DNA of 64,000 nucleotides, taken from positions 1 through 64,000 of the forward strand of contig CACECO010000005.1 in assembly GCA_902558075.1 (NCBI GenBank). The letters are read 5' to 3'. The stretch comes from an uncultured Litorivicinus sp. (GTDB taxonomy: Bacteria; Pseudomonadota; Gammaproteobacteria; Pseudomonadales; Litorivicinaceae). Of this stretch, positions 4,135 through 7,944 are shown in pieces; the stretch's first letter is position 1; every line of letters begins with the position of its first letter. Made by a program: the position numbers and the translations under genes. The notes beneath the pieces are model-generated. The model saw only the letters and a program-made list of their open reading frames with translations, was not told the origin of the DNA and did not search any database.

Positions 4135-4421
4135 TGTACACAATTGTTACGGAACCTGAGAATTTGGCTCGTCATGCTCGCGAATATCAGTTGTTGTTAG
4201 CCTGGTTTACGCGTCGCCAACATGAACTTGGACTTGATCACCTCAGTGGCGGGGATCCGATGGATCCCCATCACCCATATAACCAGGCGTTCGACGCACT
4301 GTGTAAAGAAGCAGAGCAGTATTGGCGTCAAGAGCGAAATTATTGGCCGTCCCCCTTGCAACTGTCGCATGCCTTCTTTCAAATGGAGGACCCTATTCGA
4401 CCGGATAACCTCATGGCATGA
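4134..4421 (+). CDS. small uncharacterised protein
   Basis: A 95-residue soluble, acidic, His/Trp-rich protein that I do not recognise. It has no signal peptide or membrane segment. Features that stand out are a conserved-looking DPMDPHHPYNQAFDALCKEA centre and a WRQERNYWP stretch. It overlaps its upstream neighbour by one base (TGATG) and the folM start by four bases (ATGA), which supports it being a real coding gene in a three-gene operon ending in folM. It could be a small binding or regulatory protein; no function is proposed. Confidence 0.65.
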   Translation: MYTIVTEPENLARHAREYQLLLAWFTRRQHELGLDHLSGGDPMDPHHPYNQAFDALCKEAEQYWRQERNYWPSPLQLSHAFFQMEDPIRPDNLMA

Positions 4422-5128
4422 CTGACCCAATACTCATTACTGGTGGTGCAACCCGTCTAGGCTTGGCGCTAGCTGAATACTATTTAACGGTCGGACAACA
4501 GGTTGTTATCACCTATCGAAGCCCAAGACCACAAGTCGAGCAACTGACTGATCGGGGGGCGCTATGTGTGCTAGCCGATTTCTCCACCGATGACGGCATC
4601 TATGCAGCAGCTCAGGAGCTGCAAGACAAATGTCCAGTGCTTCATTCGATCGTACACAACGCATCAAGTTGGTTCACAGATCCTGGCGGGCGTCAGAATC
4701 TCGATCATCTCGCTCTGATGATGAGAGTTCATATCGGTGCTCCCATGGTACTTACGGAAACGCTAGCACCGGCGCTACTTGGTTCAGATAATCCATCTGT
4801 GATCCATGTATCTGACCATGTCGCCAACCGCGGGAGTGATCAGCATATGGCTTACGCAGCATCCAAAAGTGCGATGCTTAATCTCACAAAAAGCCAGGCG
4901 AAAAAATATGCACCGGAGATTCGCGTCAATGCATTGTGCCCCGCGTTACTTGATTTCCGCGATGAGGACGAAGCGGCATATCGCGAGCGTGCCATTGCTA
5001 AAAGTGCGTTAAAAATCGTCCCCGGATTTGATGTCGCAATTGAAGCCATTTGCTATCTTCAATCGAATCGCTACACCACAGGTTCAATCCTTCCACTCGA
5101 CGGTGGCCGCCCACTCGGAATGCCCTAA
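4418..5128 (+). CDS. folM: dihydromonapterin / dihydrofolate reductase FolM (SDR family)
   Basis: A 236-residue short-chain dehydrogenase. The Rossmann motif is ITGGATRLGLA (residues 6-16), the active-site pair is Y146xxxK150 in AYAASKSA, and the C-terminus ends in LPLDGGRPLG. The pattern HNASSW, VANRGSDQHMAYAASK and the FRDEDEAAYRERAI segment match E. coli FolM well. FolM reduces dihydromonapterin to tetrahydromonapterin with NADPH and has weak dihydrofolate reductase activity. It overlaps the preceding small gene by ATGA. Its TAA overlaps the ATG of the nadC relic (TAATG), so nadC was once translationally coupled to folM. Confidence 0.9.
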   Translation: MTDPILITGGATRLGLALAEYYLTVGQQVVITYRSPRPQVEQLTDRGALCVLADFSTDDGIYAAAQELQDKCPVLHSIVHNASSWFTDPGGRQNLDHLALMMRVHIGAPMVLTETLAPALLGSDNPSVIHVSDHVANRGSDQHMAYAASKSAMLNLTKSQAKKYAPEIRVNALCPALLDFRDEDEAAYRERAIAKSALKIVPGFDVAIEAICYLQSNRYTTGSILPLDGGRPLGMP

Positions 5129-5566
5129 TGATTCAAATTCCAACCACCGTTGCCGTCGATGTCAGCCGCGCGCTTGACGAGGATTTTCGTACCGGTGACG
5201 AGACCGTGGATCTAATTCCAGCAGATGCTGGTGGACAAGCATCACTGATTACTCGAGATCCAGTGGTGATCGCTAAAGTCCCCTATTTGGAGGCGGGTTT
5301 TAGGCAACTAGACCCTAAAGTGAGTATCGACCGGCTAGGTTAGAGGGCGATCACCTAGAGGTAAATTCTCAGCTAGCCACATTAACCGTTCCTGCTCGAG
5401 CGCTATTAATTGGCGAACGCACGGCCCTCAATTTCATCCAAATGCTCTTTGCAGTTGCCTCGCGAAGAAGGCGATTGGCACAACTGGTGTCAATCAAATT
5501 TCACTTGGTACACTGACCAACGACATCCGGGCAATTGATCTCTCAATGAGGGTTGAATTGTCATAA
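5128..5566 (+). pseudogene. nadC: nadC remnant (nicotinate-nucleotide pyrophosphorylase), frameshifted and internally deleted
   Basis: Three NadC segments lie in three different reading frames. The N-terminus runs from ATG 5128 (AVDVSRALDEDFRTGDETVD, then FRQLDPKVSID) and stops at 5341. The middle runs from 5343 in another frame (EGDHLEVNSQLATL, PARALLIGERTALNF). The C-terminus runs from about 5468 in the third frame (IGTTGVNQISLGTLTNDIRA then IDLSMR, stop 5564-5566). Normal NadC is about 280-297 residues; roughly 140-150 residues of the catalytic barrel between ERTALNF and the ATGV segment are missing. NadC makes nicotinate mononucleotide from quinolinate in de novo NAD synthesis. No functional copy is in the window. 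The stretch holds nothing else recognisable. Confidence 0.85.
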
Positions 5567-5598
5567 AAAACATGTAGCTTTTGAGCAAAGGAGCGCTC

Positions 5599-6159
5599 AT
5601 GCACGAAAGGATCCTGCGTTTAAATATTGCTGGCTCCCCAGTCGAATGGTTGAACTGGGAAGATGCTGTGACCCTGCAGGCTCGCGGGATGGTTGCCTGG
5701 ACGCTGGGCTCTGCGTGTATGACCGTAAGAGGTGGACGATCGAGACTCACAGGCACGCAGTCGACACTCGTACTGCATTCTATCATGGCTTGTGCAGGTC
5801 GAGTTTTTGACCTCGCAAGCCGAACCCCAAACCTGACCAACACCTCCCTTTTCCGCCGCGACCAACACCTCTGCCTTTATTGCGGTAAACTAAACGAACA
5901 TCGTAACCTCACGCGAGACCATGTTGTTCCCATTTCGAAAGGTGGGGATGACACTTGGATGAATGTCGTATCTGCATGCCGTCGCTGCAATCAGTTCAAA
6001 GGCAATAAATTGCTTGATGAAACAAATATGGAATTGCTGGCGTTGCCGTACACGCCAAATCACGCAGAGTATTTGGCGCTAATCAACTCGCATCGAATTC
6101 GAGCAGATCAGATGGAGTTCTTGCGACCCAGTTTTAGTCGACAAAGCCGCTTGCGTTAA
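5599..6159 (+). CDS. HNH endonuclease family protein
   Basis: A 186-residue protein with a C-terminal HNH domain. Zinc ligands are CLYC at residues 92-95 and CRRC at 127-130, with the catalytic DH at 107-108 followed by VPISKGGDD and N-x-CN-x-KGN. The N-terminal 85 residues have the pattern of the widespread chromosomal HNH proteins rather than homing or restriction enzymes. The ATG at 5599 is chosen because AAAGGAG at 5587-5593 precedes it; a TTG at 5581 would extend it by 6 residues. It begins 32 bp after the nadC relic. Its substrate is unknown; it is probably a DNA nuclease. Nothing suggests a mobile element. Confidence 0.82.
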   Translation: MHERILRLNIAGSPVEWLNWEDAVTLQARGMVAWTLGSACMTVRGGRSRLTGTQSTLVLHSIMACAGRVFDLASRTPNLTNTSLFRRDQHLCLYCGKLNEHRNLTRDHVVPISKGGDDTWMNVVSACRRCNQFKGNKLLDETNMELLALPYTPNHAEYLALINSHRIRADQMEFLRPSFSRQSRLR

Positions 6160-6201: not shown

Positions 6202-7200
6202 GTGAACATGGATCCTTGGATTGTCGAAATATCACGCGGGCAACGCGTTGAAAGCTCATCTCTCGGTCACGGCATTGTGGTCAATGCAGATGGGGAAACC
6301 ATATTGGCTTTTGGTGACCTCAAACGTGAGACCTTCCCACGCTCTGCGGCTAAATGGATCCAGGCGCTTGAACTGGTTTTGAGTGGAGCGGCCGATGCAC
6401 TTTGTCTATCTGACGAGCACCTGGCAATCGCCTGCGCATCCCATAACGGCGAACACGAACATGTCACTCTGGTGAATCAATGGCTGACTCAGCTGAATCT
6501 CGATGTCGATGATCTAGAGTGCGGTATCACGCTCCCATTTACTGAACCTGTCCGCTTAAAGTTGAGTCATGATCATGTCACGGCAACCCAACTCCATCAC
6601 TGTTGCTCCGGGAAACACACAGGCATGTTATCGGTCTGTCAACATGTTGGCTGGCAAACTAATGGGTACACAGCATACGACCACCCGCTTCAAGCCAAGA
6701 TCCGAGAGCATATGAGCCTCATTTTTGGGATCGATGCAAATGCACTCGATTACGCATCTGATGGCTGTTCTGTACCAACCTACGCACTGCCACTGGATAT
6801 CATGGCGCTGGGATTCGCGAAGCTTGGCGCTGAGCGCTTTTCCGATGAATTCAATGAGGCCTCTCGCAGACTGCGTAACGCACAAGCGAGTGCACCATTC
6901 ATGGTTGCCGGCTCAGATCGATTAGACACCCAGCTTCTTGAGGCAGGACAAGGACGCTTGCAAGTCAAGATGGGCGCTGAGGGAGTCTATCTTGGAGCCA
7001 TTGCTGATCGCGAAATCGGGTTTGCTCTAAAATGCGAAGATGGCTCACTGCGAGGACAAGAAGCGCTCGTCGTTGAGTTACTCCGGGCAATTGGTGAGGA
7101 CGACTTAGTCAACCGTCTACCAAAGGCTTTCAGCCAACCTGTGATTGAGACGGCCCGCGGCGAGGCGGTTGGACAAATCTCAGTTCGACGTGGTCGCTAG
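6202..7200 (+). CDS. asparaginase family protein (AnsA/L-asparaginase II type)
   Basis: A 332-residue cytosolic protein of the asparaginase II family (rhizobial AnsA-like, unrelated to E. coli AnsA/AnsB). Recognisable elements are SRGQRVESSSLGHGIVV at the N-terminus, a K-W-IQALELV segment, HCCSGKHTGML in the middle, and DGCSVPTYALPL about 50 residues later. It is expected to hydrolyse L-asparagine to aspartate and ammonia; some members of the family act on other amides. The GTG at 6202 and ATG at 6208 are both possible starts. The end overlaps the convergent olsA relic by 21 bp (7180-7200). Confidence 0.85.
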   Translation: MNMDPWIVEISRGQRVESSSLGHGIVVNADGETILAFGDLKRETFPRSAAKWIQALELVLSGAADALCLSDEHLAIACASHNGEHEHVTLVNQWLTQLNLDVDDLECGITLPFTEPVRLKLSHDHVTATQLHHCCSGKHTGMLSVCQHVGWQTNGYTAYDHPLQAKIREHMSLIFGIDANALDYASDGCSVPTYALPLDIMALGFAKLGAERFSDEFNEASRRLRNAQASAPFMVAGSDRLDTQLLEAGQGRLQVKMGAEGVYLGAIADREIGFALKCEDGSLRGQEALVVELLRAIGEDDLVNRLPKAFSQPVIETARGEAVGQISVRRGR

Positions 7201-7944
7201 ATCAATGCTTTGACTCGTCGCGATCGATTGACGGTCGTCACACACGACAAGTTCGAGCATTGATTCGACATTCGATTGTGCCTCACGCGCAATCACAGCT
7301 GCCGCATCAGTCGGCGCAATAGCCGAACCAATGGCAACGCGACCACGAATAAAAGGCGCCTGACACAACCGCGTCATGTGAGAGACAAAATCATCATCGC
7401 CCGCATATGAGGCAAACGCTTTACCGGGGCCATGATAACTGAGCGCCATCGGTACGATAGAAACACCAGCGCGACGCGCAGCTTCAATCAAGCGGCTCCG
7501 AAATTTAATCGGCATCGGCCCACGAGTGGATGTTCCTTCTGGGAAAACCACCACCTGATCACCTTGTTTCAACGCAGTTTCAATATCATTCAACGCGATC
7601 TCAGCAGATTGTCGGTCACCACGGTGAACAAATAATGTCCCAGCACCTTTGGCTAATTTCCCAACGATTGGCCAACTTGCGACCTATGCCTTTGACAGGA
7701 AGCGCACATTCATCATTGAGCCAATCATCAGGATGTCGATCCAGGACAAATGGTTCGACACAATCAAACAAGGCCCTTTGGGAATATCGCCAACGAGGAC
7801 TCTTTCAAGACCAAAGAGGTGCAACGCTTTTCGATGCCACAACTGCACTTTGCGACGCGTCAAGCGAAGGTCATTGCGCTTCTCGAGTCGCTTTAATGTC
7901 CACAGACCGCGGAGCATGTGAAGGAGAATACGAACAAATTTCAT
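7180..7944 (-). pseudogene. olsA: olsA-like 1-acyl-glycerol/lyso-ornithine lipid acyltransferase interrupted by an in-frame TAG
   Basis: A 254-codon PlsC-family reading frame is intact except for one TAG at codon 87 (7684-7686). Before the stop is the acyltransferase motif NHLSWID (H65, D70, HX4D). After the stop, in the same frame, come VASWPIVGKL, AGTLFVHRGD and FPEGTSTRG (134-142). In the family the interrupted site usually reads AKAE; GAG to TAG would explain it. The gene overlaps olsB by 4 bp. The OlsB-OlsA pair makes ornithine lipid: OlsB N-acylates ornithine and OlsA adds the second acyl chain. The truncated product lacks the FPEG block and should be inactive unless the stop is read through. 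Confidence 0.85.

Follow-up and report, generated by a model that had tools for sequence, protein, structure and literature searches.

We analyzed a window of 64,000 nucleotides from contig C5 of the MAG G000 (G000:C5; the MAG comprises 53 contigs and 1.51 Mb at 72.4% completeness), whose host belongs to the OM252 clade ('Candidatus Halomarinus') and to the same genus as LSUCC0096 (G001) and HIMB30 (G009). Between an intact folM gene and an intact gene with an HNH endonuclease domain, the window carries at 5128-5566 a nadC pseudogene in which three pieces of NadC, the quinolinate phosphoribosyltransferase (models TIGR00078 and PF02749 + PF01729), lie in three frames of the + strand. HIMB30 served as the close relative and LSUCC0096 and G014 as outgroups in the analysis of this relic. 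The features at the locus are as follows:

4418..5128, + strand: folM (dihydromonapterin reductase), intact; NF005066 at 267 bits, over the cut-off; 91% identical to HIMB30 and constrained
5128..5338, + strand: nadC relic segment 1, N-terminal, about residues 1-70; 73% identical to HIMB30 NadC over 70 aa
5339..5470, + strand: nadC relic segment 2, second frame, about residues 72-115, the RTALNF region
5469..5472, no strand: junction of a 409-bp deletion, from the alignment with HIMB30, LSUCC0096 and G014; edges uncertain by some bases
5472..5566, + strand: nadC relic segment 3, C-terminal, third frame, with the original TAA; 90% identical to HIMB30 over 31 aa
5546..5577, + strand: conserved element spanning the nadC 3' end and the HNH leader, identical to HIMB30
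5599..6159, + strand: HNH endonuclease-domain gene, intact; 96% identical to HIMB30
6208..7200, + strand: asparaginase II-like gene, intact; 99% identical to HIMB30, marking the conserved slot

The relic begins at an ATG (5128) that overlaps the folM stop as TAATG, and its last frame closes at the TAA at 5564-5566. Segment 1 stops at a 1-bp deletion between 5338 and 5339; segment 2 is 76% identical to HIMB30 NadC over 49 aa and gives the sole nadC match in the G000 assembly (NCBIfam model TIGR00078, E 2.2e-8), while segment 3 matches PF01729 with an E of 0.021. In the alignment with HIMB30, LSUCC0096 and G014 there are two gaps only, of 1 bp and 409 bp. Their total of 410 bp agrees with a folM-to-HNH spacing of 456 versus 866 bases, and replaces the estimate of about 450 bp in an earlier, sequence-only reading of this DNA; that reading's description of a NadC relic in three frames, coupled to folM by TAATG, is borne out by the HIMB30 and TIGR00078 matches and by the overlap of start and stop. 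The 409-bp deletion took out approximately residues 115-250 (~136 residues) and with them the motifs TRKTIPG, NHRIGL, LIKENH, VEVE, MLDNF and EASGGI (HIMB30 NadC residues 131-245), which form the active site in enzymes of the NadC type. With all catalytic motifs gone, no enzyme can survive from the relic.

An intact nadC occupies the same folM-HNH slot in relatives (G009, G014, G001, G010, G002 and G003; in G006 the slot runs into a contig end). The name of the asparaginase II-like gene downstream rests on resemblance, as it has no NCBIfam match. Beyond it, an olsA-like acyltransferase gene (7183-7944, - strand) has a single in-frame stop, which is either a recent loss or an error, and is otherwise 97.6% identical to HIMB30; the decay of nadC is thus the older of the two, as had been proposed.

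The leftover nadC sequence carries 13/14/16 changes at codon positions 1/2/3 on the G000 branch (~146 sites each; outgroups LSUCC0096 and G014), compared with 2/3/16 on the HIMB30 branch, so that the ratio of changes at positions 1+2 to position 3 is 27:16 in G000 versus 5:16 in HIMB30 (p 0.007). The adjacent folM has 5/2/27 changes on the same G000 branch, and its 7:27 differs from the 27:16 of nadC with p 0.0002. The relic is therefore under relaxed constraint on the G000 branch, and by a rough estimate nadC was unconstrained for ~0.8 of this branch, the bounds being 0.4 and its full length. Because change is spread evenly across the codon positions, the death of nadC fell early after the split of G000 and HIMB30; the claim that the lesions cannot be a sequencing error stands on the same contrast with the constrained folM.

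Across the genus, NadC comes in two kinds, nadC1 and nadC2, which form fully supported separate clades in the tree, with 1.72 changes per column along the inner branch. All other genus genomes that are at least 90% complete have exactly one NadC each, of one kind or the other, and no genus genome has more than one. nadC1 is carried by G001, G002, G003, G006, G009, G010 and G014, in the folM-HNH slot where this is visible, and nadC2 by G004, G005, G007, G008, G013, G015, G016, G017, G019, G020 and G021. In G013 and in G005/G008/G017/G012, nadC1 is gone and the HNH gene follows ~110 bases past folM; G013, G005, G008 and G017, all without nadC1, have nadC2 in an island. G012 was considered as a genome without any NadC and rejected as such, as it has no NadC match but the contig with its island stops where nadC2 begins. 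Because G013 and G005/G008/G017/G012 form two separate lineages in a tree of five neighboring proteins, in which G013 sits near G000 and HIMB30 with a weak support of 63, nadC1 probably disappeared on at least two occasions in the genus besides the loss in G000. We also observed a third placing of nadC, beside an ampD-like gene in G018 (L026/L091), where the NadC falls outside both genus clades.

The nadC2 product is full-length (323 bits to TIGR00078, cut-off 198) and has the motifs CTRKTIPG, NHRFGL, IKDNH, LLDNF and ASGG. Its gene is accompanied by genes for a Rieske oxygenase (PF19301), a ferredoxin reductase, a Gfo/Idh/MocA protein, a cyclodeaminase-like protein and an aldehyde dehydrogenase, several of these names being given by resemblance, within a larger catabolic region that includes TctC/TctA-like transporter genes (L082, L085 and L089 in G013, G005 and G020, respectively). 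We found nothing that fits the nadC2 island in published work on a catabolic operon of the pyridine type (homarine) that includes nadC. Bug periplasmic binding proteins of Bordetella are described as binding quinolinate (PMC11452294), and by analogy the nadC2 island could conceivably take up a pyridine carboxylate.

The sequence-only reading had offered three ways out of the loss of nadC, namely a second nadC, salvage of nicotinamide or nicotinate, or dependence on others for NAD precursors, and had pointed to the genes by which to tell. nadA is intact in G000 (C20:13611-14543; 320 bits, over the cut-off) and constrained on the G000 branch, with 9/4/27 changes at positions 1/2/3, a pattern that differs from that of nadC (p 0.008). 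Its ratio of changes at positions 1+2 to position 3 is 13:27 in G000 versus 4:35 in HIMB30, with p 0.027 in one of several tests, and this slight excess could mean mild relaxation. In the assembled 72% of G000, neither a second nadC nor DNA of the nadC2 island was detected. A cyclodeaminase-like match (G000:C31:2131-3261; L123) was examined as a sign of the island and rejected because it falls in a different paralogue group and has other neighbors; this gene is 43% identical to the island gene, and its paralogue group occurs in the genus. A true nadB and nadE were likewise not found in the assembled part of G000. Because contig C21 ends inside era, short of the rpoE-nadB stretch, and contig C17 ends ~2.5 kb short of nadE, with C5 starting across that gap, we rejected these two absences as evidence for further gene losses; they say little about gene content, and they document that gaps do hide NAD genes in G000. 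In HIMB30, the corresponding nadE site is ~27 kb upstream of folM. The salvage search covered PF04095 (PncB/NadV) and PnuC: no PF04095 protein was found in G000 or the 21 other genus members searched, and no PnuC in the assembled part of G000 or, above the cut-off, in any of 15 further genus members. Among the three options, a second nadC has the most in its favor, as relatives without nadC1 carry a divergent one in an island, although none was found in the assembled 72% of G000; salvage found no support.

Our working model is that the native nadC1 of the G000 species has been displaced by another NadC, and we assign this a probability of roughly 0.68; the likeliest candidate is a nadC2 in the unassembled 28% of the genome. 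Soon after the divergence from the HIMB30 lineage, nadC1 was inactivated; the 1-bp and 409-bp deletions and the drift free of constraint may have come in any order. Conversion of quinolinate to NaMN would now be carried out by the other NadC, probably the divergent nadC2, so that the locus would be an example of xenologous gene displacement in which decay of the native copy is still under way. Because nadA is kept while nadC is long dead, another enzyme that uses quinolinate is called for, and because relatives without nadC1 carry nadC2, G000 probably has such a copy too. The mutually exclusive occurrence of nadC1 and nadC2 in two well-separated clades also argues for displacement, whereas the lack of an island in HIMB30, the nearest relative, argues against it, since a separate gain would be needed. 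Islands are often missed in binning.

It is unlikely, but deserves consideration, that the G000 species instead gave up the step from quinolinate to NaMN and depends on import of an NAD precursor, whether NMN, nicotinamide riboside, NaMN or nicotinate by a route acquired elsewhere. The lack of intact nadC, nadB and nadE from the assembled part and the mild excess of changes at positions 1+2 in nadA are consistent with this, but nadA is intact and under constraint, two of the three missing genes coincide with contig ends, and neither a PF04095 enzyme nor a PnuC above the cut-off is present in G000 or in the genus members searched. Moreover, for the OM252 clade NAD+ biosynthesis is described as intact clade-wide, with vitamin B3 synthesis genes absent (Savoie et al. 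2021; PMC8269220). That a free-living ocean bacterium still makes quinolinate with nadA, has lost nadC and draws on the NAD precursors of its neighbors by an unrecognised route appears to us decidedly improbable.

The leftover piece could alternatively be of use as DNA, with some of the HNH gene's control region located in its 3' end. The element at 5546-5577 is identical to HIMB30 while the relic overall has diverged by ~21%, and it is partly retained in lineages that lack nadC, the string ATGAGGGTTGAATTGT persisting in G013; from this conservation, the element is probably part of the HNH control region, set within the nadC end. However, a consensus scan detected no sigma-70-type promoter there, and such a role covers the last 30-odd bases only and adds to the displacement of nadC1 more than it competes with it, making it a very improbable account of the relic as a whole. 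Finally, although the source is a MAG in 53 contigs at 72% completeness, a wrong consensus over a truly intact nadC is barely credible given two lesions, even change over the three codon positions between constrained genes on both sides, and a site inside a 90.9-kb contig.

We conclude that the loss of nadC1 is likeliest an ordinary gene replacement rather than an inability to make NAD. Within a single genus of marine bacterioplankton, a gene of an essential pathway appears to have been repeatedly exchanged, and the G000 lineage is an intermediate between an intact and a cleanly deleted nadC1. It also follows that NAD auxotrophy should not be read from a dead nadC in a MAG alone, as nadB and nadE are 'missing' here as well, beside contig ends.

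Compared with the folM-linked NadC of HIMB30 and LSUCC0096, the relic shares the slot, the start overlap with folM and the N- and C-terminal sequence, but has two frameshifting deletions, has lost ~136 residues and is no longer constrained. The island NadC (nadC2; L007, L009, L089 and others) would catalyse the same reaction as the native NadC, from which it differs in being very distant and in lying in a catabolic cluster, with none in the assembled part of G000. Unlike in a full case of xenologous displacement, then, the incoming copy is unseen in assembled G000; the likeness to such a displacement is that native and divergent copies exclude each other across the genus and that a relic of the native gene is still in situ.
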